A stretch of DNA of 64,000 nt, from NCBI GenBank assembly GCA_024663395.1, contig JANFAH010000014.1, positions 620,001-684,000 on the forward strand. Reading direction: 5' to 3'. Below, piece by piece: positions 24,575-60,043 of the stretch (the stretch's first letter is position 1; every line of letters starts with the position of its first letter). The position numbers were made by a program, and so were the translations under genes. A model generated the notes under the pieces. The model saw nothing but the letters and a program-made list of their open reading frames with translations, did no database searches and had not been told where the DNA came from. The stretch is from Pisolithus tinctorius. Its lineage: Eukaryota > Basidiomycota > Agaricomycetes > Boletales > Pisolithaceae.

Positions 24575-24612
24575 GATGGTTTAGACCCACACAAGTGGCG
24601 AGTCTGAAATAC

Positions 24613-25139: not shown

Positions 25140-25144
25140 GGTTA

Positions 25145-25229
25145 AGGCTGGGACCAGGGCAAGGGTTGGATGGGACCAGTTGAGACTGGGGTAGAGCTGG
25201 TCTGGGGTGGTCTGGGCATGGTCATGACA
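25145..25229 (-). repeat. Gypsy B 3' LTR, second part
   Basis: Continues the LTR cut at 17571, matches 35198-35282, and ends GGTCATGACA at 25229 followed by the polypurine tract. Confidence 0.92.
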
Positions 25230-25361
25230 GTATCCCCCTCTTGGAGCCAAGCCCATGAGGCTCCAATAAGGACAATGCTGGGATCAAAAGTTTTGTGTCT
25301 GACCTTGAAAACTGGTGGACTTAAGACTGGTTCACCCCAGGTTTGGTTCTTCACTTCAACA

Positions 25362-33265: not shown

Positions 33266-34628
33266 CTATTTTTTTGCCTTGGGGGCAGAGCCCAAGGTTG
33301 AGGCCAGTGCTGCCTCCAAGGTTGCCACAGCACGAGCTTTGGCTTTGCCAGCTTTCTTTGGGCACTTATCTGCAAAATGTCTGGTGCCCCCACAGAACAT
33401 ACAGAGATTATTATCTCTATGGTGTTTGTGCTCCTCCAGTGTCAACTTGCCATCCTTGCCCAGTTTGTTTGAGTCCAGCTTGGGTGTGTTAGAGCTGGTC
33501 TGACCAGTCGAGGCAGGCTTGGACTGAGGTTGGTTACCGGAGTTGCTATTTCTGGGGTTATTGCCAGTCTTGGGTTTCTCTTGACTGGGCTTAGACTGAT
33601 TATTGTGGCTGGAGTTGGGAGTAGACTTGTTACCAGAGGACAACCCCTGGTGCTTACTGGACTGCTGAACCTCCTCTTTGCATTCCCAGTAGTGCGTGTT
33701 GATCTCCTGAGCTAGGTGGCAAAGCTTGTGAAGGGTTCTTGGTTTGCCAACCTGGCAGACCTCATCTTTGATACAGTCAGGGAGACTGGTGTAAAAGAAG
33801 TGGCGCAGAGTGCCATCACCGTATCTCTGGACTTGTGAGGCAAGCCAGTTGAATTCGACCATGTACTTGTTGACCTGGTGATTCTAGCTGGCTTTCAGTG
33901 TTGGCCACTGGGTCATGATGTCTGAAAGTGGTTTGAAGTTCTATGATGAACTCCTTCCAAGAGTCCATCCAGTAGGGCCAGTCCTCTGGGTCCTCAGTCC
34001 CAAGTAAGTCCAGTTCGAACCACTCGAGAGCCATCCCTTTCAGGAATGACTGCATGAAAGTGACCTTGGCTTGATCACTTTGAAAGGCCTGGGGCTGGTC
34101 CTGGAAGTTAAGTTCGCACTGGATAAGAAATGCGTGCAGCTTCTTTGGGTCTGTCCCATTGAAGGTGTCTGGTTCATGCAACTTGGTTCTGGAGGATGAC
34201 TCAGAGCCAGTGCAAGCATTACATGTGAGGAGCTCAATGGCTTTGGCAAGATTATCAAGCATGGTTACACCAGGCTTGACATCATCCTCTGGGAGGGGTT
34301 CTTCATTGTCATTGTCTGGGTCATCTCCTGGCCTGTCATCACCAGGACCATCATCACCAGGGTCATTACCACCAGGATTGAAGTCATCTGGTTCATCTGG
34401 GTCTGGTTCATTATCCAGATCATTAGTGGGTGTGAGAGGTTGATTAGGGATGGGGGTAGTGGATTTTCAGGCTGAGAAGCCCCTGAAGTTGTTGACTTCA
34501 CTGGGTGACCTTCTGGCTGTCCCTAAGGACACCAGGGCAGCGGTGTGGTGCAAGTTGACTGCTGAAGCAGAATCTGGGTTGGTGGTAGCACATGCCTGTG
34601 CTACTTGAGTTCTGGTTTGGGTAGGCAT
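33266..34628 (-). pseudogene. Gypsy B Gag, broken
   Basis: Starts at 34628 (MPTQTRTQVAQ), the counterpart of the Gypsy A start. TGA at 34467-34469 follows FRGFSA. The Asp-rich segment and gag core (KLHEPDTFNGTDPKKLH, FLKGMALEWFELDLL) run to about 33885. A deletion of roughly ten codons relative to A then shifts the frame. The last part (33862-33266) has LPDCIKDEVCQVGKP and the zinc knuckle CMFCGGTRHFADKC, ending at TAG next to the slippery heptamer. Confidence 0.9.
33269..33275 (-). promoter_or_regulatory. Putative -1 frameshift site of Gypsy B
   Basis: A AAA AAA directly before the gag TAG (33266-33268), as in Gypsy A, with pol continuing in the -1 frame (IGSSSRDS). Confidence 0.65.
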
Positions 34629-39520: not shown

Positions 39521-39936
39521 GTTTATGGCTCCCCAACAGTCTGCCATTCCCACCAGCTGTTTTAGACACACTGCCCTGAAGTGGGGGCAGCTTAAGACTT
39601 CTGCTAGCCTGCTTTAATCTATCTACACTGACCCAGCTGCTGTTAGGCTAGCTGATATTGAATATGAACATGTCCTTCTATGTCCCATTGTGTGTGATCA
39701 AGTGTCTATTGCACTAGGTCATTACTTGTGGATGAGGGTAGGTGGTCCAGGGGACATAGGTGTGTTTGTTCAGTGTTATGCCAGATGATATGTGTTGTGA
39801 GGGGGATGGGTGTGTGTGTGGATGAGTGGCTTGGGTATATGATGTGTGCATTCTGGGGCTACTTCCATAGCTCAGAGTGGAGCATAAGGCTCTACTGGTG
39901 GGAGCACTTTGTTGCAGTGCACCTCCTTTGACCCCA
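39521..39936. other. Unassigned stretch left of the KDZ element
   Basis: I see no supported gene or repeat here. Confidence 0.4.
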
Positions 39937-40090
39937 TGTAGTCAGCTTAGTCACAACATATGGGTAGCCTGCACACCAAATTACCATTACTCATGTAGAG
40001 CCTGATGTGGGCCTGTCAAATTAATTAAGTCATAACATATGAAGAGGCCCAGAAGCCCAGAGTGACAGCAGGAAATGAGCAGGCCCATGA
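39937..40090 (+). repeat. KDZ left terminal inverted repeat
   Basis: Matches the complement of about 57040-57186 with scattered differences: GCTTAGTCACAACATATGGG, then ATTACTCAT, AAATTAATTAAG and GAGCAGGCCCATGACA in the same order. Confidence 0.85.
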
Positions 40091-41365
40091 CAAGTATATT
40101 ACAAGAGTCAATCCATTGCAACTTATTGGCAGGCCCATCATGCATACAGCACATGTGCCACAACCCATGGACAGGCCCATCTGAAGCATGCTGCACCCAT
40201 CGAAACTGATAGTCAGGCCCATCAATGGGATAAGGCACCAGTTGGAAAATATGGGCAGGCCCATCACTAATATGGCAGATGATGTGACATCCAATTGACA
40301 GGCCCATCCAAGGGATGTTCTACCCATCTAATCTTATGGGCAGGCCTGTCAGGAAAATATCAGATGATGTTACACCCAAGGGCAGGTCAGTGGGAGGGGT
40401 GTGATAGCTATAAGAAGATATGGGTAGGGCCTGGATCTTATGTGCAGGCCCACCATGTATATCACAGATGGGGTCGCAACCCATGGGTGGGCCTGGGGAA
40501 TGGATGAAACATCCATGGGAACATATGGGCAGGCCCATTGGGTATATAGCAGATGATGTGGTAACATGAGGATGGGCCCATAGAAGGGGTGTGGCATGTA
40601 CACTAACAAATGTCAGGCCCACCATGTATATAATGGATGAGGTCTCAACCCATGGATGGGGCTGTCCATGGGATGATCCATGCAACAAATCTTATGGGCA
40701 GGCCAGTTGGGTATATAGCAGATGATGTGGTAACATGAGGATGGGCCTGTAGAAGGGGTGTGGCATGTATATTAACATATGGCAGGCCCACCAGGTATAT
40801 AATGGATGAGGTCTCAACTGATGGATGGGCCCATGCATGGGAAGAGCCATCCAACAAATCTTATGGGCAGGCCTGTCAGGTAAATATTGGATAATGTTGT
40901 AATACAAGAACAGGCCTGTCCATGGGATGTTCCATCTGAAAAATCATATGGGAAGGCCTGACAGTTGTATCTTGGATGGGGTCAAAACCTATGGATGGGC
41001 CTGTCCATGGTCAATTCTATCCAATGAATGTTATGGGAGGGCCAATCATGTCTATAGCAGATGGTGTTCGAAATCAGGGATGGGCCCATTGAAGGGATAC
41101 AATTTTGATTGGATGATGTGCACAGGCCTGTCAAATATATGTCAGATGAGGTGACAAGCCATGGAAGAGCCCATCCAAGTAATGTTGTGTGCATGAAATG
41201 TTATGGGTGAGCCTGTCAGGTAGATATCAGATGACATTGCAAACCATGGATGGGCCAATAGAAGGAAGATTGCACCAGTCACAACCAATGGGCAGGGCCT
41301 CAGGGATATATCTGATCCAATCAAAAGCAACCAACAGGCCAGTCCATGGGTTGGTCCACAAGTCA
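40091..41365 (+). repeat. KDZ left subterminal tandem array (~43-bp units)
   Basis: About 30 diverged units, each with CAGGCCCATC or a CpG-decayed form such as CAGGCCTGTC. Spacing near 40.1-40.4 kb is 41-44 bp. The units are probably transposase-binding sites. Confidence 0.75.
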
Positions 41366-42075
41366 AACCCAATGGCTGACTGTTGTGTATGTGGCAGATT
41401 CCTCCCCACTCTGCTGACAGGCATCTCCAAGAAGGTTGGGCGAGGTAAAACTGAGATGGAAGACACACTCATTATCAATATGGCGCCTGTTGTCGCAACC
41501 CATGGAGGGGTCTGCTGTTGCTATTGTAAATGATAGCAAAGTATGTGAACAACTGGTAGAGGAAATGTATCCAGCCCATGTCATCACCAAATTGTTGCAG
41601 TATTGAGTGTGGCCTCTGGAAATCATATCTGATCTGATTTTTGAGCTGGAATTGAAGGTGCAATATCAATATACCATTGATAGCTTTGATTGCCTTTCCA
41701 GGCAGTTGACCACATATCGGGTGCCAACTCATGTTGTAAGTCAAAAATTTTCCAAATGCAGTGTCAGTACTCTTGCATCTCAGGATTTCCATCAGGCCAT
41801 CTGCCTCTTGTCTGAAATTGAATGGCTGCCATGTAATGTCCTGCCAACACCTCCAATGATTGGCAAATGCATCTAACAGACACCATCTGCCAGTACATGA
41901 CAGCCAGGCTGCATGAAGAGATAGTGGATGGCCCATGTGCCCTCCCAGCAATATCCATTCCAATGCAAATAGCTTGCAAGGCAAACCACATTGTAGCCAT
42001 CATCATACAAGCATATCGAGAATGTGGTGAGTACACAAGATCTGCCAAATGAAAAGTGGTTAAAAGCATCAACAA
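41366..42075. other. Region between the left array and the TET/JBP exons
   Basis: The N-terminal exons of the plus-strand TET/JBP-like gene should lie here, but I could not identify them. A 169-codon minus-strand open frame (41984-41475) has no family features and is probably chance. Confidence 0.35.
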
Positions 42076-43062
42076 GTGACCCATGACATAAAGCAGGGTG
42101 TTCAGACTGACCCAGCCCATTCAAACAATGTGGAAATTACATGTCCTACAGTGGTGATTGACAAGGAGGGCAGCATCCTGCTATGGTATCTTCCAAATGC
42201 CATCAGCCAAGCCTATCAGGTTGACCTTCTGAATTTTGGATTGCTTGCAATGCTAACATGGGGAGCAGTCAGAAGTTTGGAATTCTCTTGGACTGCTCAG
42301 CATTCCACTTCAACATAGCCTGAAGTTAAATGGAATGGGAGGATGGTGGAATGATGGGAAAAACTTTTGCAATGATGCAAATCTTAAAGGCATGATTGAC
42401 CTCTCACCTGCATGGTTTCAACAAGGGTGTGGGGTAGGGCATACCCTATTTGCACATGGGTCAGGCTGAAATGCAGTTTCAAGCCGAGCAATGATGCACA
42501 TCATCCTGAAGTATCACTACTCTTAAAGTCAAAATTGCAACCAAAGGAGGTACATGAATGGCTGCAGTGCACAGCTGGGCTACAAGCCATCCTATCAGGA
42601 GCACTGCATATCATGCACCTGAAAATGTACCTGCATGGATGGGAGGCAATCACACGACTCAGATCAAAGGCTGCTGAATGGCAGGATGAAGATATGGAGG
42701 CCATCTTGCCAATGTGGAACTCAGTCTACAGTTCTATGTCAGTAATGGTGAATCACACTTCACCCCCACATAAAAATATGAATGGCCAGAAGGTATGGCT
42801 GGATACCTTGCTTACTGTTGGCAACTATCCATGGCTCCACTTCTTGGTCATGGAGCTCGGAATACAGCTGCAGTACAATCTGGGCACTGTAATTGCACTT
42901 GTGGGTTTGGCATTGATTCACCAAGTCAACAGCATAGATGGCAATCGGGCATGCCTGGCATATTACATGCAAGAGAATGTCCATCAATACATTCAAGTCC
43001 CACTATGTGAGAGGCTGCACATATTGGACATAGCAATGGATTTGCAGGCAGTGCAGACATAA
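42076..43062 (+). pseudogene. TET/JBP-like 2-oxoglutarate/Fe(II) dioxygenase, probably decayed
   Basis: TET/JBP enzymes oxidise 5-methylcytosine or thymine in DNA. Blocks in order: CPTVVIDKEGSILLWYLPNA (42145-42210), GMIDLSPAWFQQG in another frame (about 42390-42425), HPEVSLLLKS, HEWLQCTAG, LSGALHIMHLKMY, then VMVNHTSPPHKNMNG with the metal site and ELGIQLQYNLGTVIALVG, ALIHQV (distal His, 42919-42921) and NRACLAYYMQENVH (2-oxoglutarate Arg). This order and wording match basidiomycete TET/JBP proteins linked to KDZ transposons. The metal-binding HxD reads H-K-N (42769-42777), so the Asp is replaced. Frameshifts or unresolved introns lie near 42210-42320 and 42430. The N-terminus is not found. 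Convergent with the gene at 43305-44990. Confidence 0.68.
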
Positions 43063-43304
43063 AGACATAGGCATATCAATTTATTGAGGCATATTGAAAG
43101 ATCATTCTCAATGTTCAGGGTCATCATTGTGCCAAAATCATGGTTCTTTGCATATTGATCTCTGTCATGCCAGGTGCAGTGGGAGATGATTATATCTACT
43201 CTACACAAGTACACAATTCACATCTAGCCCTATTGGTGTACAATCCCAACATCTGTGCCATGCATGTCAACTGCTCAAATAATTCTTCTACTTGTGTGTT
43301 AAGG

Positions 43305-44990
43305 TCAGGGAGTAGTGCCTCTACTCTGCGTGCATTGTTCTTGTAACTCTCCACCCATGATTCCAATGTCCCATGGAGGTGATCCTTGATGGGGGACTTG
43401 TCTGATGGCCAAAAATCCCAAGTATATTATCAGTATGCCCTGCCTATGACAGTTGAAATTCAGAGCTTGTACCCTGAAATACCTTTGCACAATGGTCTGC
43501 ACCTCATTGGAGCACAAAACACACAAGTCACTTGCATAGTTTGATGCAGCTGTCAACCACCACAGAATCACAAACCCACCATCTTCCTGCAGGTGGGGAG
43601 TCCACTGTGGCAGTAATTCCATAACATGTGAGCAGGTATTGGACATCTGTGCCTCTGGAACTTGAGACAGGGCATTGCAGAAGGTTTCTTCTGTCCATCC
43701 CCCCATATGATGCAGCATGTATGATGTGGGAAATGGGAGCCAATAACAATTCTGCATGACTGCTATCAGGATGAGACAGTCCAGCATACTCTGAATAATA
43801 GTGTGTCAATGCCTTGCAATCTCTCTAGCACAGAACACTCACCATATCAATGCAGAGATTGTGATACCAGTTTGCTGGCCATTTGGCCACAGTCAGCAGT
43901 TGTACTAGGTGCCAAATGGCAGTATTGATGCAGCAGCCCATGTACATGATGATCATGTCTATGACTGACTGCCAGGCCAGGTATCAAGGTTGTGCTGCAA
44001 ACTGTTGAAGGCCTATCGCAGCGAATGGGTCATAGAAGTCGTCCAAATCAGTGATTTGATGGAGGGATCTCTCTGCTTCCTTGCAAAGGTCCATCCATCA
44101 TAGTACCACATAGGCAAAATCTGTTGCTGTCCATGCCATTGCATCTGCAACTGCTGGATAAAACTGGTCATTTGGGTGGAAAGGGAAATGATACTGGATG
44201 GGATGACAGGTGAGCCTAAGCTGATGAATGGCCCAATATACTGCATGGGAGTCAAGTGAGGATAGGAACATTGTCTGGGGTGCTTACTGGCATGATCAGC
44301 TCCTGGACATGACATACAAAACCATGCACCTCCATTTCCTGCTTCTCCTCATTGGACAGGTTGTGGCCTGTACTGTGTTGAGCAGCTGAATTAATTGCAT
44401 TCCATAAAATGAAACTCACCCATCCAGGTGGAACATAGGTGCATAAATTTCTGTTGCAGTCAGTGCTGTTCCACACTGATGTCTTCAGCCAAGAATCAGG
44501 TGTCTATACTATCAATGAGAATTACCAACAGGGTTGAATGGGGGTTATGGGGGCAGTTCCAAAGATATGTCCATGTCCATTGCTGTATTTGTCAGACAGC
44601 AATCCCAACATGTACAGAATCAACTTGACATATGGGTATCATTCCCATCTGGTGATGTGACTGAATGGTGGGAGTCAGATTCTTGCAAGGAGGGGGGTGG
44701 AGGTGGGATGAGGGCATTGTCAGTCTCATCTTCATCAGACTGTGGTGGGGGGGGTTGCTCCTTGCTATCGTTGCTGGCTTCACTAGGTTGTGGTGGTGGC
44801 ACCTCCTTGGCCATGTCCTCAAGATTGTTAGGAGGTGGCAGGGGTGGTGGAATGTCATCATCAGGAGGTGGTGGGGGGGTGGAATGTCATTGTCAGGAGG
44901 TGGTGGTGGTGGGGGGGGTGGAATTGGATCAACCATTGATGCAGAAACCTCAGAAAGCTGTGGTTGAGGTGGAAGGTGCTCCAGCATCTG
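43305..44990 (-). pseudogene. Unrecognised KDZ cargo gene 1, decayed
   Basis: Minus-strand coding-like blocks follow one another with stops and frame changes. They are an acidic Pro-rich N-terminus (MAKEVPPPQPSEASND and SDEDETDNALIPPPPP, 44814-44620), WVSFILWNAINSAAQHSTG with EEKQEMEVHGFVCHVQELI (44420-44290), then MGGWTEETFCNALSQVPEA (about 43710) to about 43305. No known domain is evident. The arrangement resembles unnamed proteins next to KDZ transposases, but I cannot give a function. The plus-strand Gly/Val-rich frames here are shadows of the Pro-rich coding. Confidence 0.4.
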
Positions 44991-45249
44991 GCTATGTCAA
45001 CTGTGGCTTGTCAACCATTGGGTGGTTCCTGCCTTTTGACCCTCCTTGAGGGGCCTGTGGATTGCAGAGGGTCCTCCCCCCTGGCTTCAATTTGCCAAAT
45101 ATGAACTACAAATGATTAATGGAATTGTGGTATGAAATTGAATGAACCCAACCTCTGGGATTGAAGCATACTCCATGGGGAATTTGGTCTGCCATAGTGG
45201 ATGGATGCTAAACAATTTCACTTGTTGGAAGCCATTGCCACTCCAAATA

Positions 45250-47350
45250 TCAATGTTCAACACCCAACTGTGGGAACATCTGCCATGAGGCAGGAGTTGT
45301 GAATGTCATGTTTCCATGCCCAGTATGAAAGATAAATGCTGGCTGCCTGGCATATAATCCAGTAGAAATGCCAACAACTACATAGCAATGGCATGGGTGC
45401 CCACAAATGCATGTGTGAGTCAAAATGAAATGATTGGGGCCCTGTGTAACAGGGGTGGGGGATGCACCCTGACATGACTGTTGCAGCCTGAACTGAATCA
45501 ATTATTTCATTGCCTCTATAATATTATATGTACATGCAGATCAAAACTCCATCCAAGATCATTGCATCCTTGCCCTCTTTCCCAGAGAAACACCTGGATC
45601 TGCCAATGTATGCTTCTATGATTGCTTGGATGGGGGTGAAGGGACATCCACATCTGGCCAGGCAGATTTCCAGATGCCCTCCATCATTCCATCTCCACCA
45701 CTCACTGCCAATTACCTCTGTCCTGATTGGGAATCCATACTCTTGCCATTTTGTAAAGGAATTCAATGGCCCTTACTGGCAGTTGCAGAATGATGTTGGG
45801 CTACATCCTGTTTAGCAGGTCCAGGGTTGATCCATGCTTGGCCTCCTTGCTTCAAGGAAGGCTTCAGCCTTACCTCCAGTCGCTTGTTGCCATGTCCAAC
45901 TGGATTTGGAGGTGCATCCTGGGTGATTGGAAGACTTTGCAAATGATCATTGCCCTGGTGCTCAGAACCATCCTTAATCTTTGCAGTGAACTCAATCATC
46001 TCAGCTAATAAATGATAAATATGATAGCCTGTCATGCAATGGAAACAGACCTGGCCTCCTTTTGGAAAGTGTTGGTAATTCATCTGCTGCACCTAGACCT
46101 TCTGATTGATTGACTTCATTGGAATCAGACACTTCTTCTTCAACATACAACACATTGGTTTCTTTCATTGCCCTCCCAGGGAATGGAGTTTTATTGCAGA
46201 CCCAGCAGGTGTCTTTCTGATGCACATCATCAGGCTGAATTGGTGCAGTTGTCTTGTGCAGGAAGGGAGTTGCTTCATGATGCTGGTTTCCAGCAGGTCA
46301 TTGTCATGGTCAGTTTCAACATCTGCAGCTATCTTCCTTCAGTGGAGACATTTCAGGTGGGATGACTTTCCTCCATTACTGACCCAGCCATGCTGATCAT
46401 GGCTCAGACCAGGCACATCTGCAGCTGTGAAGATGACCAGAGATGCCTGTTCAAAGTCATCCATGTCACTGCCTTGGACATTTGGCTGCACTGTGTTCAT
46501 GCTGCCCTTTCCATTTCCCTGCTGATCTGACTTTTGAGTCCTCCCAGCTGGGGCTTTGGATTGGGCTGGAGCAGTTGCAGGCATGTGGGACCTGGATTGC
46601 CAGTCCCTTACAATCTGAAGGGGAATGTCACTGTCCTCTGCTGGTGGCTGCAACTTTCCACCTTGATCCAGCCACTGTGACAATCTGTGCATCTGAGAAC
46701 TCACCTGGCTTTTATTTTGGGGGTGGGTCCTTCCATCCCATTCCATTTGTCAGCTATGTCCTCTGCTGCTGCCAACTGCTTGTCAGAGAGGTCCTCCTGC
46801 ATGAATGCAGTGAGTGCCTGCTGATAGACACCAATTTGCTTGGTGCTTTCTTCATTCCCAGTGTCCTCCCTCATGCTGGCAAGTTTTCTCTGCACACAGT
46901 CATGATACAATTCCTGAACCACTGACCACACAGAATATTTGTATCCAGACTGGAGCATAATTTGGGGCTTCCAGGCACATAACAGCTTCTTCAACCAAGC
47001 TGTGACAAGCTACAAGCAATTTGTTAGTCTTTGAAGACCCATTCAGAGCTGCAACCATGTACCCCAGCCTTCAGCTGCATTTCTGCATGTGACAACTCCA
47101 TGTTCTTGTCTAATTTGTGCAGCTCCCCCAATATTGACTGCAAGATCATTGGTTTTTTTGTCTTTCTGGACTCTTTCCAATCCTTCCATCTGCGAACCAG
47201 CACCTCCAATTCGTTGATGTCAAAGTTCTCCTGGTCCCCATTCCCAGTTACTGACTGCTCAGTGCCTTGTCCGATGATGTTACTCCCATCTTCTACATCT
47301 GTTGGGACCCAATCATCATAGCCATCATCTGCATCATACTGCGAATCCAT
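45250..47350 (-). pseudogene. Unrecognised KDZ cargo gene 2, decayed
   Basis: Starts at 47350 with an acidic segment (MDSQYDADDGYDDW), then NELEVLVRRWKDWKESRKTK. A second block has QKLASMREDTGNEESTKQIGV-like text and YQQALTAFMQEDL, DIADKWNGMEGP (46870-46730). Later blocks are polar (QQGNGKGSMNTVQPN) and carry CWVCNKTPFPGRA (about 46205) and a further part down to about 45500. I recall similar helical IGVYQ..ALTAF..AEDIADKWN segments in proteins near basidiomycete KDZ elements, but no function is known to me. It diverges from the transposase gene at 47771. Stops and frame changes show decay. Confidence 0.45.
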
Positions 47351-47770
47351 GAGGACTTCTGGAATGGAAGAGGGTATCTATGGGCCCTACTACAAGAAGT
47401 ATTATATTAGCCTGAAGGAAGGCATTATGGTATCCATGACATCATTCAAATTGACTCCCAATTGCATCTCCTGCCTTGCTAATTGACTTTGTGCCATCTT
47501 TCCACATTCATTGTTGGGGTTTCAGCAGCCATTAATTCTGTCATGGGTGAGGTGAGCCAATCACACTCATTCTGTTGACTACTCTGAGCCCTAAAAGGTT
47601 AGTGCTAGATGGGTTTAAGTCAGCCACATCAGTTTCGCATTGATACTGAATCTTTGATCTATCATGCTGGGATCATTGATCATGAAATGACTGTCAAGCT
47701 CCATCCAAGATATCTAAGATGATTCCTACCCACATCTGACTTGATCATACTTACCATCAACACCATAGCC
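47351..47770. promoter_or_regulatory. Shared upstream region between cargo gene 2 and the KDZ transposase
   Basis: Two divergent start codons (47350 minus, 47771 plus) lie 420 nt apart with no coding signal between them, so the region probably holds both promoters. I could not fix TATA boxes. Confidence 0.45.
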
Positions 47771-50700
47771 ATGGCCAAACACAGTGCAGGAAAGCACATG
47801 AGAATGATTGGGTGTATGCCTGGCCATCAGGTCAAGCAACTAGAAGTTAAAACTCAGACAACCAGCAGTCAGAGCAGATTGAGATTGGTTGAGGTCATGA
47901 TTGCACAACCTGATGCCACCTCTGCTGTCCATTCACCCTGCTCTTCACCATCCAAGCACTCCCACTTGCCTTCCAAACAGCACATGCATACTGATGAAGA
48001 TGCACTCAACATGGAATATGATGATAATGCTCCTCCTGTAGAGCCATTACAGTTACCTTGAAAAAAGGTACCAAGGGATCCTTCATGCAACAACCCAAGC
48101 TCATTTCCATTGTCAGACACAGAATGATTACATCTGTGAATGGCTTCTGCACAAAGAGGAGTTCATGAGGGTCCTGTTGGAGCTGGAAGCACCTCCTGAC
48201 CCACAGAACTGCATAAGTTGTGGAACAGATGGGTTGTACAGATGTGCAGATTGCTTTCACCAGCCCATATTCTGCAGGGAATGCTGTAGAATGACTCACC
48301 AATGCTTGCTTTTTCACAGAGTGCAGCACTGGAATGGGGAGTTCTTTGAGGAATTGGCACTCCATATGGTGAGAAATGCCCTCATTACTTTGCATTGCAT
48401 TTACAGAGCAGACTCAGACTGGTGCTCAGCTGCACCTCAGGCACACCAGAGCAGCTTTCCTTTCTGATCCATCTCATGTGAATGGCACTGGAGGGCCTGT
48501 CAAAATGAGTGCCCCTGAATGGGAAGATGTTGATGATGTTCCAACCCACATGCATCAGCCTGTCAGGTCAAAATATCTCACTGTCATTGATGTGACCAGG
48601 GTGCATTTCATCACAGTATGTTGGTGCCAGTGCAAAGCTGCAGAAAGCTTCCAGCTACAATTGCTGCAAGCCAAGCTATTTCCTGCTACATTTGAAAAAC
48701 TGAGTACTGCATTTACATTTGTGGTCTTGGATGATTTTGTGGGAGACAACCTGGAATGCAGCACATCTGGGATGAACTATTACTCAAAACTGCAATGGAT
48801 GACTTCTGGTGTCTTTCCTCACCTAATTCCAGTAAGTCATTGGACCACGATGGTTGATTGCAGGGCATCTAAGGCAGTAATATGACCAGGACAGATACTG
48901 GGAGTTGCTGTGAGTTGCAAGGCAATGGCGACTCCTGAAACTGTTGAAATGGAATGGCTTCCTGCAATGTGAGCAGGCTCCTAAAAAAGGGGAGTTGGGG
49001 TTATTTTGTGCAGCATGTCCACAGCCTGGGATCAATGTTGACCTGGCAGAAGATCTGGATCAGTAAGTGTTGGGATTTGGCTCATCCCCTGTCATTAACC
49101 TTCTGAAGCTGGAAATATACCTGCATGCTAGTGATGGATGGAAATTTCAAAGCCAAACATATGCACAACAGGCATCCTGCAGATCAGGTGTGGTTGATGG
49201 ACAGCCATGGATTCATGGTCACAGATCCAGATTATTGGGCATACCTGAATTGCTCATGTGTTAGCTAGAAATTGGCATGCAACAATCATAAGGCAATTAA
49301 TCAGGCCAATGCCCAATGGGGCAGACTTCACTCGACCAGAATTGGTGCAATGGCATGCACCCAGCATGGGTGTTTTTACCTGCATTCTGTGGTTGACTTC
49401 CAAAAAGGGGAAAGGTAGGATATCACATCAATGATGTGCCTCCAGCTCATGGCAGTTCAGGCAGTTAAACATGGATTACTCATTGGCAAATGCATTGCAC
49501 TACAACATGGCAGGAATCAACCATGTCCTATGCTTCTATGACATCAACTGCTCATACATGAAATATTTATGCACATGGGTCTGAAATAGCACATTCATTG
49601 ACATCCCAGATTCAATGCAGATTATGCCAGGAATTGGAATGTGGCATGTGCATGGTCACAAATAGGAATGCTATGCCTGACATGCACCCTTATTCATGCA
49701 AGGCACTGGGTGGGTAGATGGAGAAATTATTGAGACCTTGTGGTCACTACTCAACATTGCATCCACTTCAGCCCAGGGCATGAGTTCCCCACACTGCCAG
49801 GAGCTGTTGGATTTTCAGATCAGTGATTGCAACTTCATGAAGATGATTCACATGGGTATGAGCTTCTATTCATGCACTAACCTTCCTGACTGTTCGTGTT
49901 TGGTCAATAGTCTGATACAGAAACTGACAACCACAAGGGTAGCAGTGGATATGGCAAAATGGGCATTCAAGACATTGGATGAAGCAGTGTCTGTGATGCA
50001 ACATGATACATGGACCTACCAAGAGCAAGTGGCCTTCAGAGACCGAATGGTTTACCCCTCTGCCATGGATATCTTTGAAGTGCAAATGAGGAAGGGTAAG
50101 GTTCACACCTGCTCCTCCTTTTGCAATACATCTGAAGTGTTCATTAGCCCCAACAGTGCATACCATTGAACTGGAGTTTTTGAACAATATCACATCAAGT
50201 GGAGCACAGCATGGGATGGGAAGTTGGCTCACTCATGGTCTCAGGTTGGAAGAAGCAGCAATCACATTGCACATTGATCATCACAATGTCAGTGTACATG
50301 TGCCAGAGCTGAAAAGATTGGTAATTGCATGACACAAGGAGCACTTATTATCAGAGCAGTCAGGTTTTATCACAGATGCTGCCATATACATCAGTCTACA
50401 GCAAGATGTGGGAGGTGATTGGAATCCAATCAATGAGGAAGGCAATGAACTGCAGGACAGCTGATGCATGTCCAACAGATATCTATTGGATGCTGAAGAC
50501 CCAAATGAAAGCTCTGACAAAATGCTCACAGCCAATACTGCTGACCTTGGAGGGATAGCCATGTTGCTGCTTCCATTGAATGTTGGAATGGCTGCTTTCC
50601 ATTCCTGCAATTCAGACTGTCTCCATGATATGGAGCTGAGGCTCTGGATCGGTCAAGTGAATGATGCACTAAACGGGCTTCAGCTTGCATTGGTGGACAA

Positions 50701-51288
50701 GGCTGTGGTCTTCCAGAATGTGGTGTGACATGCCAAAAGCTTTAGTATGAAAATGTGTGCATGGGACATGATCCATACAATTAACAGAGTGGTTCAGAAG
50801 CAAGTTGCAATATACAAGCAATGCCAAAAGGCAATGGTTGCTCTGGGTACAAGTGCCAAGACCCTTACCCATTACCAGCAATTGGAGACATTGGATCTCA
50901 CCATGACCACAGCCACCATAACTCAGAATGCATATGCACACCAGGTCAGCAATTTGCCATGGTTTTGGTCCATTGATGTTCTGACAGATACAGAATCCAT
51001 CACTTGGATGTCAGAATGTATGTCTTTCATCTATGTATGTATAGATCAATGTTGACTGTACACATAGTTTACTGCACTCACTGGCTTCAAGCCAAATCAG
51101 TGCAAGACCATTGGTCACAAGAGGAACAGTTGCTGATGGTTGAATTTCAATGGATGATCAATTAGTTTAATTATCAAGCTGTCCAATGGTGCACCTGCTG
51201 CTTGGAATGCAATGCGCTTGGCACCAGCTGTTATGCTGTGAGGCAGATAGCAGTGTATGAGAGGCTTTTGGAGCATGCTAAGTTGAAA
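47771..51288 (+). pseudogene. KDZ transposase with CxC2-like cysteine cluster, decayed
   Basis: Starts at 47771 (MAKHSAGKHMRMIG). An intron 48068-48122 (55 nt) joins to NDYICEWLLHKEEF and the Cys cluster CISCGTDGLYRCADCF..CRECC..H. WNGEFFEELALHM ends exon 2 at 48368. Further blocks: IDVTRVHFITVCWCQC, LLQAKLFPATF, CEQAPKKGELGLFCAACPQPG. The nuclease core has VMDGNFKAKHM (about 49130), WLMDSHGFMV, CHNHKAINQANA, HGCFYLHSVVDFQKGER, CFYDINCSY (second Asp), HVHGH and VDGEIIETLW (Glu, about 49715), followed by SDCNFMKMIHM. The C-terminal helical part runs to about 51288. Stops (for example TGA 48059-48061, before VPRDP) and frame changes disable it. Block order matches Kyakuja-type KDZ transposases. 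Confidence 0.85.
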
Positions 51289-51570
51289 TAACAGAGCATG
51301 AGCTTGAAGTATATCCCAACTTCAATGGATATTGATGCTAGCCATGCGTAGCTATAGTCAGACGAGTGTCTATCATTCAATATAACCATTCAGGTCGAGT
51401 TCATCAATAGAAATTAAATTGCAGTTGCAGAAGTCCATATCAGCCTTAAGCAATGTTCCATTTTCTGCAATCCAAGCATATCTTCTGAATGGTACCCAAA
51501 TAGAAGTGGTATGAAATTGTCAGGATATGACAATACAGACAGTGGGTATCATAACAGCAAACTTATCCCT

Positions 51571-53943
51571 CTACTGTGAGGGGGGGAACTCTGTATCACT
51601 GAATACACCTTGGACATATCTACCCATTGCACCTACATCCTCACTCTGGCACTCCCACTCCAACCCCACTGGGTGATCTGCCAGGTTGGCCCTTCCATGA
51701 TATGAGTATACTGTGCCCTCAGCTGGCTGAAGTCCTCTGTCAGTCTGGCCAGTGACGTTCAACCTGGATTGGCACTCCTTGGGTGGAGGATTGCAGCAAA
51801 TATTTTGGATTGTTGAGGCAGCTGTTGTGACTTGCATTGCACCTGGTCCCAGTTCCCCATCTCCAGGGTGCCCTTGATCGAATTGGCCCTCTTGCATCGC
51901 CATGGACTCAATGGCCAGGTCACCTTCCATTCTGCTCATCTCGGCATTGCCAGGATGTCCTGAACTCACCATCACATCATTCCCATCATTGCTGGGGGGA
52001 GGTGGTGTGACAAGTCCAGAAGTTGGATTGTCAGGAGGAGGTAGTCGACCTGCAGCCAATGCAACAACTTCCAACTGCAAAGCCTCAATGGCCTGAATCA
52101 CACTATCCAACCTTTGGTCTGACACCATCTGATGTGATGACAATGCTGCAAAGCCTCAATGGCCTGAATCACACTATCCAACCTTTGGTCTGACACCATC
52201 TGATGTGATGACAATGCTGCATATTCATCAGTGATCTGCCATCATCAGCCATGGTTCACATCTGTTCTTCAAACAGGCCAGGCATAGCAGCTTGTTGATG
52301 ACCATCAAAGACATTCAGCCTTGTTTTCACTTCCAGCATTTGTGCTGATATTGCATTGTGGAATTGAAAGAGCTGGTTGAGCTCATTGCAGACATTGACT
52401 TCAAATAGCAATGACAGTTGTCACTGAGGTGTTGGAGCAGATGGTGGGTTGGGGACTGATGGGATGGGAGTGGAATTGGTTGCCATATGTTGATTACATG
52501 TCAGATATTTCAAGCTTGTCATGAGTAGAGGAAGTGGAACATATGATTTGTTCCTCTGGAGGTTGCGATGGCAGATGGTCCAGCTGCCAGAGTCGTTGTG
52601 AGGCTATGTTGGTCGCTTACTGCATGAGAGACATGGGTGGGATTTGGAGCTGGCCTCACTGGGAGATGGATTACTGCCATGGGCTTATCAGTTCAGTTCT
52701 GGGGGAATGGGTACACCTACTTACCAGGCTGTCCATGGGGAATCATTACAACTGGGTGGGACTGGCTTTGTGGAGGACATTTGCTTGCATTGGAGGTGTG
52801 AGGTTTCTTTTCCAGGCAGGTCATCACATAGTCTGCATTGTCATCATCATTAGTGTCTTCATCATCAGGGTGCAGGCTGCTGCAAGACCTTTTCTTTGTT
52901 CGTGCATGGGAGGGATTCCATTGTGAGGGAGTGGCAGGTGTTTTGTCTTTAGGCAGATGAGGAGTTGCAAACATGCACCAGATCTTGCATTTTTTGCATT
53001 GCTGACATGCACCTTTTGGTTTCCAAATGCAGGGTGCATTGGCATTGGTACACTTGTTGCAACGATTTTCACTGGGAACTATGGTTGGCCCAGATGGGTC
53101 TGTCACTGGATGGACCTGATCGCCAGTTTGACTCCTGCCTTGCCCTGTCGATTGAGGTGTTGGACAGCTAGACATACCTGGCCTGTCCATGTCCACATCC
53201 TCCTCCTGATCCTCTTCCTCATCCAACTCATCAACTTCCTCCTGCTTGACTAACTTAGGTTTTGGTGTCCAAGACAGACAAGCAGGCTGGCATGAGCCAG
53301 AAGTGGCTACTTGTCACATCAATGGCCATCCCCAAGCAGGCTTGTAGCAAACAGTATCCCCTCCCATCTCTGCATCCTCATCCACCAGTTCATCCTCCCC
53401 ATTGTCATCTCCAGTCATCACCTTCACTTCAGCATCCAACACCTTTTCTTTGCCTTTACAACTCACAGCCTTCAGTAGTGTTTCCAATGACAGTTCTGCA
53501 GCAGGTGGGAAGGCAGATGTCTTGAAGCTGGTATGCTGCAAGTCGGAGTGTCTTCCTACCATCTGCAGCCATGGATGGTCTTCAAAGGTGGCCTTGCCTG
53601 GGTGCATGATTAGTCTCCACTTTGGAAATGGGAGACCCTTGTTCTCCTGTCCAACCCTCTCATGCCATTTGCAGAACCTTTTGGCCACAATGACAGTGAG
53701 TGGGATCTCATGTGTCATCCTTGCAATTTTGCACATGGAATCCTATATTCCTCAGAGGTGCAACATGTGGGATGATATTCGGACTTACCACTACTTCCAC
53801 TACCCCTCACACAGCCTCCTTCCAAGCTGCAAACCTTGGCTTGTCAGCCAAGTCCTTTGTTCCAAGGACTTGCCAATCAATGATTTTGATGATGGAGTTT
53901 GCTGCAGCTGTGAGCTCGTTGCATTTGGTGTAGGTCTTCATTG
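51571..53943 (-). pseudogene. KDZ cargo: Zn2Cys6-type, acidic protein
   Basis: Read from about 53943: MKTYTKCNELTAAAN to RFAAWKEAV, intron, MTHEIPLTVIVAKRFCKWHE and FPKWRLIMHPGKA (53716 on), an acidic segment, MDEEEDQEEDVDMDRP (53226), then the cluster with spacing C-x2-C-x6-C-x7-C-x2-C-x6-C (about 53065-52975). A basic TKKRS segment follows. The last block (52143-51571) begins with a helix RLDSVIQAIEALQLEVVAL and ends with SDTEFPPSQ. Cys spacing fits a fungal Zn2Cys6 cluster, so DNA binding in the nucleus is inferred. It faces the transposase tail to tail. Introns are not resolved, and a 71-bp tandem duplication touches the last exon. Confidence 0.55.
52075..52220. repeat. Perfect 71-bp tandem duplication
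   Basis: 52075-52145 and 52146-52216 are identical, with a few bases of a third copy. The unit lies at the start of the last block of the Zn2Cys6 cargo gene. Being exact, it must be recent or conserved by conversion. Confidence 0.95.
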
Positions 53944-54049
53944 CACTGTTGAGACAGACATGGGTAAGGTCGGAGTTGTTGGTGTGAGGTACTTTGTGGG
54001 AAATAATGCCAATGGAAGATGTGACATGTAACTTCCACACATTTACTTT

Positions 54050-54440
54050 GTGTTTGTTGTTCCCTGAAACCTTCCCATGGAGTATCTATATCAACATGTA
54101 ATACCCTGTTTGCTACAACATGGAAAGGATAGATCGCAGTACAATCATATTACCACTTACTTAATAGTAATTGCAATAGATTGGTGAACACATCAGGACT
54201 TACAGACTGGTCTCAAAGTTGTGGAATCAATTCATTATGCCAGCTGTCCCATGCATGGGATGTGACCTCCGACAGAATGCATGGAATACCACCTATGATC
54301 GCTCAGAACCATAAGACTATCTTCTGCATCAATGCGACCTATTCTACAGCCTGATATATTTGATCCCATGTCATTATTGATGTAGCTATGGGTCCATCTG
54401 TATTTGTCGATCTGCCTGATCCTCCCATTGTTGGACCCAT
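54050..54440. other. Unassigned stretch before the right array
   Basis: I see no gene. It probably holds the promoter of the minus-strand Zn2Cys6 gene. Confidence 0.35.
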
Positions 54441-56486
54441 CCATTTGATCTGAACTGGTTCATGCCATGTTGATGGCCCCATCAATATGATGCATCATAA
54501 TACCTTGATATGGCTGATGGGCCCATTTTTACATGTTAATCAGCCCAACCACATCATCGATGGCTCCATTTATTTGATCCAACATGATCTTCAACATATA
54601 TACCAGCCCATCCATATGTGGTGATCACACAGATGACACCATAGATGGGCCCATCTATATGATGCATCATACTGCATGGATATGATGGATGGGCCCATGT
54701 GTATATGTCACTATGCCTGATGATACTCTTGACAGGCCTGTCCATCTGATGCAACATTATCCATGCCTTAGTGACAGGCCCATTTATATGATGCATCATA
54801 ATGCACCCATATGACAGACAGGCCCATTTGTATGTGTTGCTAAGCCTGATCATACTCTCCACAGGCCCATCCATTTGATGTGACGTTATCTGCATCTTAG
54901 TGACAGGCCTGTCTTTGTGTGTTGATATTCCTGATTATACCCTCAATGGGCCCATTCATTCCACACAACCTTATCCACCACCTGGTGTCATGCCCATCCT
55001 TATGTGTTGACTTGCCTTACCATACCATCAAAGGGCCTGTCCATTTGATGTGACATTATCCATGCCTTGTTGACAGGCCTGTCTATATGATCTGTCATAA
55101 TACATGCATATGACAGACAGGCCCATGTGTATGTGTTTCTAAGCTTGATGATACTCTCAATAGGCCCATCCATTTGATAGGACAGTATCCATGCCTTAGT
55201 GACAGGCCTGTCTATATGATGTGTCATAATGCAGGCATATGACAGATGGGCCCATTTGTATGTGTTGCTATGCCTGATCATACTCTCAACAGGCCCATCC
55301 ATTTGATGTGACATTATCCATGCCATAGTAATGGGCCTGTCTATATGATGCATCATAATCCATGGATATGACAGACAGGCCCTGTGCATATGTGTTGCTG
55401 AGCTTGATGATACTCTCAATGGGCCCATCCATTTGATGCAACATTATCTGTGCCTTAGCGATGGGCCTGTTTATATCAAGCATCATAATGCACAGATATG
55501 ACAGACAGCCTCATGTGTATGTGTTGCTAATCTTGATGATACTCACGACAGGCCCATCAATTTTATGGGACATTATCTGCACCTTAGTGATGGGCCTGTG
55601 TGTATATGTCACTATGCTTGATGATACTCTCGATGGGCCTGTCTATTTCATGTGACATCATCCACACCTTCCTGACAGGCCCATCTATATGATGTGTCAT
55701 AATGCATGCATATGATGGACAGGCCCATTTGTATGTGTTGCTATGCCTGATCATACTCTCAACAGGCCTGTCCATTTGGTGTGACATTATCCTTGCCTTA
55801 GTAATGGGCCCATTCATATAATGTGTCATAATACATGGATATGATGGACAGGCCCATGTGTATGTGTTGCTATGCCTGATCATACTCTCAACAGGCCCAT
55901 CCATTTGATGTGACATTATCCTTGCCTTAGTAATGGGCCCATTCATATAATGTGTTATAATACACAGATATGATGGATGGGCCCATGTGTATGTGTTGCT
56001 ATGCCTGATCATACCCACAATGGTCCTGTTCATTCTATGTGACCTTATCTACCACCTGGTGATGGCTCCATCCTTATGCATTGCCTGCCTTATGATCTGA
56101 TGATACTATCAACAGGCCCATCCTTATGCATTGATCTTCCAGATCATACCATCACTAGGCCCTTTCATTTGATTTGATGCCATCCATGATATGATGATGG
56201 GCCTGTAGTTATCTCCTTGTCTGCATGATCATACTCTCGACTATCCTGTCCATTCAATTCTGCATTATCTACATCATGGTGACAGGCCCATCTATATCAT
56301 GCACCATAATCCATAATATGTCTGATGGGCTGTCCATCTGATGCAGCATCATCAGCAATATCATGCACAGGCCTGTCCATTTGATGTAACACCGTCTGCA
56401 ATATGCTGGACAGGCCAGTATATATGTTGTGATCTGGCTGATCAAACCATCAATGGGCCCATCTATTTGTTCCTGTGTCATTTGTG
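54441..56486 (-). repeat. KDZ right subterminal tandem array (130-bp higher-order repeat)
   Basis: Units with GGGCCCATC or GGCCTGTC recur every ~43 bp. Three unit types alternate (CCATTTGATGTGAC, TATATGATGCATCATAAT, TGTATGTGTTGCTA), giving a period close to 130 bp (for example GGCCCATCCATTTGAT near 55163, 55293, 55423, 55893). Orientation is opposite to the left array. Confidence 0.85.
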
Positions 56487-56490
56487 ACGG

Positions 56491-56956
56491 TGTAGGGAAC
56501 GAGTTCGAGTTCCCTAGGAGAATCCGTCTTGGTCAGGAGTTTAGGGGTGGAAGGACTTGTTTTATTTCTTGCCTTTGTTTTTGTGTTTGTACCCCTGGAC
56601 TTGGTGGCGAGCAGCCACATCGCTGACTAAGCGCGTGTGCTGTGTTTGCGCGGGTTCAGTTTACCAAACAACCAGTACATGTCACAGGCCCTCAGTAGTA
56701 GGGTGATTCAGTCTCGCATTTCGGCGAGTTTTAGAAGTTAGATTTATTACTTTGGGGAGTACCCAAAGTGCCAGGAGGACTGGCAAGAGTATTAGACAGG
56801 CACAGCTAAGTATCCTTTTTCTAGTTCGCATTTTTTACTTTTTACTACACTTCTTTCTCCAGAGAGAACCTCCCTTTTGGGTCGAGCACTAAACTTGCCC
56901 ATTACTGACTGTTACTATTTCTAGGTACTAGGTACCTTATTTTACCTATTCCTACA
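56491..56956 (+). repeat. Solo LTR, TGTAGGGAA family, CpG-rich (466 bp, TSD ACGG)
   Basis: TGTAGGGAACGAG..CCTACA flanked by ACGG (56487-56490, 56957-56960). It keeps CG dinucleotides, unlike the array around it, so it inserted recently. It starts like 61683-62121. Confidence 0.85.
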
Positions 56957-57039
56957 ACGGGCCCATCAATTTGTTGCAATGTTGCATCCCCCAAATGTCA
57001 GAAGGGCCTGCACATAGTTGTGACAGCTCTGTCATGGGC

Positions 57040-57186
57040 CTGCTCTTATGTTGCTGTCACTCCAGGTCCTCAGGCCTGTTTATGTGCCATGGCTTAATTA
57101 ATTTGATGGGCCTGCACCAGGCTTTATATGAGTAATGTTAATTTGGCATGTGGGCTACCCATATGTTGTGACTAAGCATGACTACA
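57040..57186 (-). repeat. KDZ right terminal inverted repeat
   Basis: Complement of 39937-40090. The outermost shared bases read TGTAGTCA on the minus strand. Confidence 0.85.
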
Positions 57187-57297
57187 CTATGTGCTCCTTT
57201 CTGGCAGTCTTTGGCTCCAATTTGTCATAATTCCCTGTGGGGTGTGTTATCATTTGTTCAGGTTTTGTCTGGGGTTCCCACTGTGTGTGTGTTGTAA

Positions 57298-60043
57298 TCA
57301 TTTCATGGCCATTATGTATTTGAATAGATGGGCTTTCTTGTTTGAAAGAAGGAATGTCAATGAGTTGGCATCCCTTCCCAGCATGTTGCGAAGCATATGA
57401 CATTCTCTGTCATATCTTGGGCACTAGTAAATGTAGTGGTGCATGTTTTCTGGCCTGTTATCTCTGCACTGTAGGCAGTATGGTGAGTTGCTTCGCTTGA
57501 ATCAGTGGAGGTAGCTGTTAAGTGGAATGTGGCCTGTGCAGAGTTGTATGTACATTCCAGTTTGCTTCTTTGGTAGCAGAGCAGCTAGTTTTGTGAATGA
57601 GTTGCTGGGCAGTTGGGGGTCTATGGTGGATATGTGACAATAGCAGGGGGAGCTTTTCCACCCCTTTGCTCATAGAGTCTTTAGTCTTGCAGTGTGGACT
57701 TGCTTGAGAGCAGATATGCTTTGAGGTAGTCAGTTCCTCAATGGAAGGGGTAGATCCTTCAGCAGGCTGGAGGAATCAGGTCTTGTTGTGGCTGTTTTTG
57801 CTTCTCTGTCAGTGAGCTTGTTCCCCTCCACATCCATATGTCCTGCTATCCAATGAATCATGATATCTTTCCTTGTGAGCTCTTGTCTATACAGAATTTT
57901 GCAGATGGACAATCTGAAATGCAAGAGTAGGTGGTGGCCTGGTTTGGCAGATGGGTGCTCACTAGATCTTATCACTGCCTGGTTGTTGACAAGTATGGTA
58001 GCTGGGAACATGGCTTCATTTCTTGTTTTCAGGAGTTGAGTTGCTAGCAGCATCACTACCACTTCTGCTTCAAAGACTGTGTGTTCTGATTCATGGCCAA
58101 GGTGATAGTGGAGTGTGGCAATGTGTTGGTGGTCCACAAACAGGGCTGCAGCTGCACCCACATGGCCTCCTGTGCAGGATCTGTCAGTGAATACAAGTGT
58201 GCAATCTGAGACTTTCCTGAGGTCTTCGATTGCCTCCTTTTTGCTTGTGGCAATTGCGATTGTGTGCAAGGGGAGGGCGCTGGGCAGTATTGGGTAGGGG
58301 TTGATAGTTTCAATATCTTCTGGTGAGATGTTCAGGTCATGTATTAGCCAGTGGAGGGCTGCTTGATGTCTCTTGATGTTCATTCTGGTGATCCTTCTTA
58401 CATGTGGGTGCAGTGGGTGTGACTCCAGTAGCAAGGATAGTTGTAGTGTGGCTCTGTAAAGCATATGTTGAATGAGTAGGGGTGCTGGTAGGATATTTGC
58501 ATGTGCTAGGAGTGTGTCAGTGGGGGTAGTTTTCAAGGCTCCTGTCACTGCCAGGGCTGCTGTTCTCTGTACTGTCAATATGCATTTTGCTATACCTTTC
58601 AAACCTCTTGTTTTGGACAGGTGGTCACCAGTGTAGGTTGGCTGGAGCCAGACAGAGGCAGCATACAACACCTTTGGGACTACTACTGATTGGTACAGTT
58701 GGTGCATGAGTTTCAGGGGGATACCCCATGATGCTGTAGACAGTCTCCTCAGGAGGAGAGCTTGCTTTGTTCCTTTCACTACTGCCTGAGCTGTGTGTGT
58801 TTTCCACCTTAGCTCTTGATTGAGTATTATGCCTAGAAACTTGTGGTTAGCAGATGGCATTATGGTAAAGTTCCTTAGCATGAGGGGGAGCCTGGTTTTC
58901 ATTTTGCTGAGTGTGAAATCCATGAGGGCAAACTTGCTTGTTTTGAAGTGTGAGTTGTGCTTGTCTGATCAGTTGTATCTGCCTTCTTCTCTTTCCATCA
59001 TGTTGGCTAGTGTAGCATGGGTGTCTGTGAAGGTTTTGCCTATGGCTATGAAGGCCATGTCATCTACAAATGCTAGCATTAGTTCTTTTCTACCCTTTGC
59101 TGTATCAGCCAGATCCAAGCTATATATGATGTAGAGTATCATTGATAGGGGGTCACCCTGTCCAATTCCATTCTGGATGGGGAACCAGCTGGACTTGTAG
59201 TCATCGAAACGTATCTTGGTTTTCCTGTTCATTAGCAAATGTTCCATGTATTGGACTATTTCCAGTGGGAGCCTTCATTTTCTCATGTTGTGTAGAAGTT
59301 GGTCTTTGACTGTGTTTGGGAATGCTCCTTCAATGTCTAGGAACAGGGCCAACACCACCTGCTTTTGCCTCCAGGCATGTCAGATGGTGGTTTTGAGTAA
59401 TAACAGTGAATCTTCTGTTGAGCATCCTGGTCTTCCCCTGAAGTGCATTGCCAGGAGTAGCTGGTGTTTCTCCAGTATGTATGATGTGTGGTCAGCCACT
59501 ACTGCTGAGAGTAGCTTTGCCATGGTGTTAAGTAGCACTATTGGGCAGTAAGCTTTAGGAGTTGTGTAATCTGGTTTACCTGGCTTTTGAAGTATGACCA
59601 TTGTTGACTCTCTCCACAGGTCATAGTAAGTTCCGAGTGTGAATACTGCATTGAAAAGGGGTAGTAGGTGGTCAGTGAGGATGGGGGTTCTTTGGAAGAT
59701 GATGTTGGCTACTCCATCAGGTCCCAGTGCCTTGTAGGGGCTGAGGCCTTTGATCATGTGTGTCAGTTGGTCTTGTGTGATTTGGGTCCAGGTAGTCAAG
59801 GGTACTGACAAGTGGGTCGGGGGAGGCAGGAAGAGTGCCTGCGTGAAGGCCTTGCTTTTGTCTTCATTTGAGCTGAGTGTGGTTTCTTCACCTTCTTCAT
59901 TTGTTCCCTTGAGCATTGGTATCCTGGTCTTGCTACCATCTCCGTAGGGCTTGGAGATGTATCCATTCACTATCCATAGGTCTTCATTGTTAGCTTCTTC
60001 AAGCCAGTCTTGCCAGTGGGTCTTCTTGGCTTCCTGGATGGCC
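57298..60043 (-). pseudogene. LINE (Tad1-like) reverse transcriptase with RNase H and C-terminal Cys/His motif, decayed
   Basis: A single minus-strand frame from 60043 to TGA 57298-57300, with stops at 59380, about 59272, 58969, 57730 and near 57430. RT blocks: LSPYKALGPDGVANIIFQ, FRGRPGCSTEDSLLLL, NGIGQGDPLSMILY and the catalytic FVDDMAF. RNase H follows: CTLVFTDRSCTGG, FEAEVVVMLLA, TILVNNQAVI (the expected Asp reads Asn) and HWIAGHMDVEGNKLTDREA. The tail has LCTGHIPLNSYLHRF and C-x2-C..MHHYIY..CPRYD, typical of Tad1-type LINEs. The endonuclease part is absent because Gypsy C inserted at 60044. The 3' end lies only about 110 bp from the KDZ end. Confidence 0.88.

Follow-up and report, generated by a model that had tools for sequence, protein, structure and literature searches.

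Iyer is said to have put TET genes on fungal transposons into print in 2014, and the transposon that we describe here, a decayed 17.3-kb element of the symbiotic fungus Pisolithus tinctorius, carries a TET/JBP-like gene beside the gene of a KDZ transposase. The copy studied, called W below, lies in a 64-kb stretch of DNA (the window, positions 620001-684000 of contig C14 in a 92.5-Mb genome), and coordinates given without a contig are those of the window. The combination of KDZ and TET/JBP, which a sequence-only reading of this window had called known, is indeed described for KDZ elements (PMC12730594). The TET-carrying Kyakuja elements of Agaricomycetes (Kojima 2025, PMC12730594) share with the Pisolithus element a KDZ transposase, an AG-type CcTET-like TET and a 7-bp target-site duplication. 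However, two Laccaria Kyakuja families in that paper have 5'-CA..TG-3' termini and no terminal inverted repeats (TIRs), whereas the Pisolithus element has GACCCCA..YTATGTG termini and an imperfect TIR of 148 nt; because of these termini and this TIR the element is filed under KDZ, and its filing under Kyakuja was rejected. The main text of the same paper mentions neither Pisolithus, nor zinc, nor the word subterminal. The Cryptococcus element KDZ1, in the part of its report available to us (PMC12810828), is about 11 kb long and also combines a KDZ transposase bearing a zinc-chelating cluster with long TIRs, but its TIRs measure 241 bp, its duplication 8 bp, and its cluster is CxC1, whereas that of Pisolithus is CxC2. 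An 8-bp duplication of the Zisupton/Dileera type was likewise rejected, because 7 bp are duplicated in the 20 copies read.

Two plant systems resemble the Pisolithus element in logic, and no homology is claimed for either. According to the accessible part of PMC5735166, the Arabidopsis protein VANC, which is encoded by a VANDAL transposon, binds a short tandemly repeated motif and causes loss of methylation; the Pisolithus element also contains a short motif in tandem repeats, but that part of the paper mentions no oxygenase, whereas demethylation in Pisolithus would be enzymatic. CACTA/Spm elements, as presented in the accessible part of PMC2613891, are large DNA transposons whose subterminal repeats are read by a second transposon-encoded protein, TNPA, and it was suggested there that methylation of the GC-rich repeats could hinder binding; they differ in having another transposase and a 3-bp duplication (in a soybean element), and the same part mentions no TET. 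Transposable elements are enriched in oxidised forms of methylcytosine in two further basidiomycetes (PMC8889193). How a TET enzyme reaches its own transposon is not stated in the texts consulted, and the titles and abstract openings searched yielded no description of a unit of TET, Zn2Cys6 and palindrome arrays.

Our proposal, to which we give about an even chance, is that the Zn2Cys6-like protein of this transposon family would bind arrays of the palindrome GACGGGCCCGTC and that the TET/JBP-like oxygenase would remove methylation there; the element would thus probably lift host silencing from its own ends. Zn2Cys6 proteins typically recognise the triplet CGG, in many cases in two inverted copies. 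In the scheme that we envisage, the host would methylate the CpGs of the arrays and thereby silence the element, and this methylation would hinder the Zn2Cys6-like protein or recruit silencing. The Zn2Cys6-like protein would act as the reader of the palindrome and mark the ends, the TET enzyme, brought near by this protein or by the products of two further genes, B and C, would clear the marks at or near the arrays, and the transposase could then work or be expressed. A more specific version is more doubtful and is offered tentatively, namely a targeted demethylation system in which the Zn2Cys6 protein would read helically spaced CpG palindromes in both subterminal arrays, B/C would link it to TET, and TET would oxidise 5-methylcytosine in these sites. 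In this version the element would encode reader and eraser alike, and fungi would have evolved a counterpart of plant VANC and Spm TNPA that brings an enzyme of its own. If the proposal is right, this would be a naturally targeted demethylation system. The constant combination of TET, Zn2Cys6-like gene and arrays of one CpG palindrome would give a concrete, testable answer to the question of how TET finds its own element, and the many copies at varied stages of CpG decay in one symbiotic fungus offer cases and controls within one genome.

Because decay in W is too advanced for its genes to be predicted cleanly, a copy on contig C24 with a CpG observed/expected ratio of 0.91 was used as the guide, in which the gene order is TET/JBP (+), B (-), C (-), KDZ transposase (+) and Zn2Cys6-like (-). 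The earlier assignment of one gene to the TET/JBP family holds: the Pfam Tet_JBP profile (cut-off 34.9 bits) matches the frame at 42400-43062 of W with E 1.9e-10 and 40.7 bits, and C24 with 8.4e-17 and 61.3 bits. The C24 protein matches the solved 5-methylcytosine oxidase CcTET with E 1.1e-23, and the alignment keeps the HKD (HxD) motif, the distal histidine and the equivalents of G331 and D337, which are described as important residues of CcTET (PMC12730594); the gene is predicted to oxidise methylated DNA. In C24, the KDZ domain was found with E 3.7e-25 (89.4 bits, cut-off 26.6) and the CxC2 zinc cluster with E 4.5e-26, also over its cut-off.

The sequence-only reading had further named a Zn2Cys6-like gene. 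Its protein carries the six-cysteine spacing of Zn2Cys6 proteins (C-x2-C-x6-C-x5-12-C-x2-C-x6-9-C) in 23 of the 24 copies read, although two of these (C196 and C53) have a stop inside the cluster, and the copy without the spacing is C12. The gene model P0001 unites the three parts of the gene, and its UniRef label, which is incomplete, reads Zn(2)-C6 fungal-type. The protein has 91-99% identity to Pisolithus tinctorius proteins and relatives in Pisolithus orientalis. In its structure model the cysteine cluster is the sole confident part, with a predicted local distance difference test (pLDDT) score of about 80, and in a fold search five of the six PDB matches were Zn2Cys6 proteins (GAL4, the top match, and Pho7, AlcR, PPR1 and Gal4), all weak (E 0.77-4.1). 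Because a model spanning genes C and B and a model of the Zn2Cys6-like gene stand on neighbouring locus tags of P. orientalis (F5J12DRAFT_782058 and 782059), the five-gene unit is probably present in that species as well.

The mirrored arrays that had been noticed inside the two ends are real in W. In C24, both arrays contain perfect GACGGGCCCGTC and near copies of it every 42-43 bp; the palindrome reads CGG-GC-CCG inside GA..TC, that is, CGG/CCG half-sites with one CpG in each half. With up to two mismatches allowed, C24 has 20 sites in its left 2.3 kb, 30 on the right and none in the middle 13.7 kb, where a mononucleotide shuffle predicts 0.08, 0.06 and 0.64, respectively. W retains 12 CpG-decayed sites (GACAGGCCCATC, GACAGGCCTGTC and similar forms), whereas scrambled motifs give 0.004 on average. 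The mirrored arrays of W are decayed forms of the palindrome GACGGGCCCGTC, which is new here. The C53 subfamily has matching ends, follows the 7-bp rule and carries period-43 arrays with 70-71 sites, C4 has 37 sites, and three divergent subfamilies have the palindrome in common. Next to each palindrome stands a less conserved box, GTCACAACATATGG, which is clearest in C53 and also occurs in the terminal repeat. An information measure computed for the palindrome is biased, because the units were selected by the palindrome itself. Genome-wide, exact GACGGGCCCGTC occurs 403 times versus 3 for the reversed control, and 65 of the 73 places listed, all on contig C1, have one of the five genes no more than 9 kb away.

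Six of the remaining eight listed places lie inside one 8.4-kb derivative with long inverted arms (C1:224368-232725, L076), which has family-type ends, 33 palindrome sites and arms of 3 kb that are 97.8% identical. None of the five genes was found there among the matches listed, and it is perhaps a natural non-autonomous form. Ends without inner genes, which the earlier reading had named as contrary to a single mobile unit, thus exist in this one case among the matches listed.

Several points weigh against the proposal. The Pfam profile Zn_clus stays under its curated cut-off (best 19.2 versus 21, C24 11.2, and no match in P0001), which is why we use the name Zn2Cys6-like; the profile searches once suggested for this locus agree with the earlier reading for Tet_JBP, KDZ and CxC2, and for the zinc gene the cysteine spacing speaks in its favour and the Pfam score does not. 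The protein is also poorly conserved, and C24 shares about 38% of its residues with copies of the C53 type. The motif was chosen on C24 and W, where it was first counted, while C4, C53 and the genome were counted later. A compact KDZ-TET family represented on contig C96 has a six-cysteine gene with no GACGGGCCCGTC in the 5 kb read, so the presence of a zinc gene is not in itself tied to the palindrome. B and C have no assigned function, and 2 of 18 segments compared between C24 and C4 have a ratio of nonsynonymous to synonymous substitution rates (dN/dS) above 0.6. Finally, the transposase, which bears CxC2, could itself bind the arrays, as GTCACAACATATGG is common to array units and terminal repeat.

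This last point leads to the explanation that carries most weight among the rivals, though we regard it as unlikely: the arrays would be sites at which the KDZ transposase, through CxC2, pairs the ends, the Zn2Cys6-like protein would activate transcription of the element, and TET would be untargeted. The shared box, the presence of CxC2 and the fact that array units read inward alike from both ends all agree with it. However, the compact KDZ family on contig C27 has none of the GACGGGCCCGTC sites in 18 kb, and what is conserved in the unit is a palindrome of CGG/CCG, a form more typical of Zn2Cys6 sites. The C27 region itself (C27:173500-191500, L055 and L056) has the arrangement C- KDZ+ TET+ and an array of its own, with 223-bp units that contain GGCCGG/CCGGCC sites, and further KDZ-TET families may use different reader sites. 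The compact family on C96 (C96:59500-64499, L097) has a diverged six-cysteine gene (CDRCTEKNLPC..).

It is rather improbable that TET is a general anti-silencing cargo, acting genome-wide or across related copies, and that the arrays are expanded transposition signals. TET genes are indeed carried by fungal DNA transposons of 11 lineages, and the absence of the word subterminal from the main text of the paper that reports this (PMC12730594) fits such a view as well. Against it, TET, the Zn2Cys6-like gene and the arrays stay together in the three subfamilies read, even where the identity of the zinc protein falls to about 38%.

The genome was searched with the five genes and both ends, and matches were clustered at a 9-kb gap. 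Copy counts are lower bounds, because scoring covered the best 40 of 216 left ends, the best 40 of 215 right ends, 150 of 186 TET and 150 of 365 KDZ matches, and the rows clustered were 150/150 for TET, 93/102 for the zinc gene, 111/130 for C, 83/88 for B, 125/151 for KDZ, 40/40 for left ends and 29/40 for right ends; the rows left out were fragments, most rows of about 40% identity, rows beyond those listed, and 11 right-end rows that were in fact left ends. The 248 resulting clusters include at least 37 with all five genes, 36 of which have them in one order and on the same strands (TET+ B- C- KDZ+ Zn-), the odd one being two elements tail to tail, and both ends are among the matches listed in 16 of the 37. 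The search with the terminal sequence, which had been suggested as a check, thus recovered further copies whose gene content could be compared, and the view of one mobile unit with a KDZ transposase is borne out. Inner genes at unlinked places had been named as contrary to this view, and single-gene clusters do occur (TET 54, the zinc gene 23, KDZ 11, C 7 and B 7 of the 248); some of them are other KDZ-TET families, and the scoring of best rows, the 9-kb limit and the rows left out add to their number. Further clusters contain part of the gene set, and compact families with the arrangement C- KDZ+ TET+ account for 19 clusters.

The zinc gene, C, B and KDZ lose identity to C24 in parallel from copy to copy (rank correlation 0.88-0.98), although the 24 elements compared were hand-picked and are related copies, so this is no independent test. 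Between C24 and C4, which are both CpG-rich and belong to different subfamilies, the dN/dS values are 0.26 (TET), 0.30 (B), 0.31 (C), 0.25 (KDZ) and 0.34 (zinc gene), and 47-51% of the changes fall on third positions; judged from these comparisons, all five genes look like maintained proteins under purifying selection. The dN/dS values of C24 versus C19 were not used, since many indels in C19 scramble the frames. This C19 copy (C19:491210-509526, L049 and L050) has a fairly high CpG ratio of 0.71 but differs from C24 by numerous small indels, a pattern of change other than the CpG decay seen in W.

For genes B and C, which had been described as two unknown minus-strand genes, a Pfam search found no family over cut-off, and a protein search with B returned three matches, one of them named Pisolithus tinctorius, and gave no lead. 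An AlphaFold model of gene C (model P0020) had a mean pLDDT of 33 and was not used. The description as unknown stands, but their number is less certain, because the P. orientalis gene models P0024 and P0025 continue from C into B and the two may be one long gene. The lack of an assigned function for B/C and for the Zn2Cys6-like gene would suit the idea that the cargo benefits the host or elements other than this transposon and hitch-hikes passively, but the genes keep one order and the same strands in 36 of 37 clusters and each has a dN/dS near 0.3, which makes this very improbable.

Shared inverted ends had also been reported, and the TIR arms of W (39945-40092 versus 57030-57177) are indeed 80% complementary over 148 nt. 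Outside the left TIR, [G/A]ACCCCA stands at all 13 left-end loci given in the reading direction (the other 17 of 30 are on the opposite strand), and YTATGTG stands outside the right TIR in complete copies. Because these 7-bp terminals are conserved in the compared copies, the outer boundary was moved 7 bp outward on each side, and the ends given earlier (39937..57186) were too short by that amount. W spans 39930-57193 (17,264 bp), as the terminals, the flanking 7-bp duplications and the empty sites establish. CTCCTTT is directly duplicated at its two ends (39923-39929 and 57194-57200), and the 7-bp rule is found in all 20 copies read, of which 16 have exact duplications and 4 have one mismatch (10 and 4, respectively, in a set of 14 within the 20). 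Examples are GGAGGAC (C24) and TTCCTAT (C19), both read by eye, ACGTTGC (C4) and ATGGAGA (C53), and a further copy on C3 has TGCACAG on both flanks. One duplication is common to C12 and C166 and another to C19 and C196, which leaves 18 distinct sites among the 20 copies; these pairs on different contigs are probably allelic or duplicated assembly contigs. The copies for this count were chosen with both ends among the matches listed, and two candidate end pairs (C75 and C1), whose ends are 54 and 65 kb apart, were left out.

The search for empty sites, proposed in the earlier reading, was successful. When the flanks of W were joined (220 bp, with one copy of the duplication), 12 genome matches were obtained, of which 10 cross the junction at 75-89% identity and 2 are W's own flanks. 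The flanks (39820-39929 and 57194-57310) belong to another repeat family, inside which the transposon sits and whose 10 matches elsewhere are uninterrupted. The 20 copies with duplications, together with the empty sites, rule out a chance inverted repeat, and a chance composite or nested insertion, which the several other transposons in the neighbourhood might suggest, is refuted by the same data and has practically no probability left.

Table 1. Features of the transposon copy W in the window, with strand and basis of assignment
Feature	Position	Strand	Basis
Target-site duplication, left (CTCCTTT)	39923..39929		Identical 7 bp outside both ends; 20 copies; empty sites
Whole transposon copy, 17,264 bp	39930..57193		Compared left ends and complete copies
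Left end: terminal GACCCCA and imperfect TIR	39930..40092	+	Best 40 of 216 genome candidates match at 88-100%
Left array, units of about 42-43 bp, decayed GACGGGCCCGTC	40116..41514		C24: 20 sites with <=2 mismatches, 0.08 expected
TET/JBP-like dioxygenase gene (predicted), upstream region and catalytic frame 42400-43062	41684..43059	+	Pfam Tet_JBP
Gene B (or 3' portion, if C and B form one gene)	43199..44619	-	Mapping from C24; dN/dS 0.30, C24 versus C4
Gene C; lacks 752 bp present in C24	45562..47424	-	Mapping from C24
Gene of the KDZ transposase, including a CxC2 zinc cluster	47723..51342	+	Domains in C24, mapped to W
Zn2Cys6-like gene	51574..54085	-	Six-cysteine motif; P0001 joins such parts; mapping
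Zn2Cys6-like gene, N-terminal part	53717-54085	-	
Zn2Cys6-like gene, acidic and cysteine-cluster frame	52696-53742	-	
Zn2Cys6-like gene, C-terminal part	51574-52603	-	
Right array, mirrored, units of about 43 bp	54386..56467		C24: 30 sites with <=2 mismatches, 0.06 expected
Right end: TIR and terminal CTATGTG	57030..57193	-	End comparison
Target-site duplication, right (CTCCTTT)	57194..57200		Matches left copy

The strong methylation-type decay reported for this DNA is evident, as the CpG observed/expected ratio is 0.09 in the W element and 0.33 in the whole window, compared with 0.91 in C24. In the 13,124 bases that align between the two copies outside the arrays, W differs at 734 of the 1,554 CpG positions of C24 (47%) and at 467 of the 11,570 others (4.0%), and CpG transitions make up 707 of the 1,201 differences. 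A search of the host genome for DNA_methylase gave three matches above the cut-off, and two of these resemble each other. Stops occur in the mapped W frames of all five genes, although some may fall in introns; in the KDZ gene they affect 6 of 8 mapped stretches, which overlap and in which some stops are possibly intronic. The 752 bp of gene C present in C24 are missing in W, and the iron-binding aspartate of the TET gene has become asparagine (HKN, codon at 42775), so that the HxD...H triad, kept in C24, fails in W. Because of these stops, the loss in gene C and the lost metal ligand, W looks dead and is very likely without working tools, contrary to the earlier picture of a transposon carrying tools to change methylation.

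Elsewhere in the window, parts of a Ty3-type retrotransposon (gag, protease, reverse transcriptase, integrase and chromodomain) lie at 21534-27485 and 31557-33365 on the minus strand, and a Transposase_21 (tnp2) fragment lies at 4734-5582 (-). Just outside the right end of W, a frame at 57733-58968 (-) has a sub-threshold RNase_H match, and an aspartyl-protease frame is found at 62636-63541 (+).

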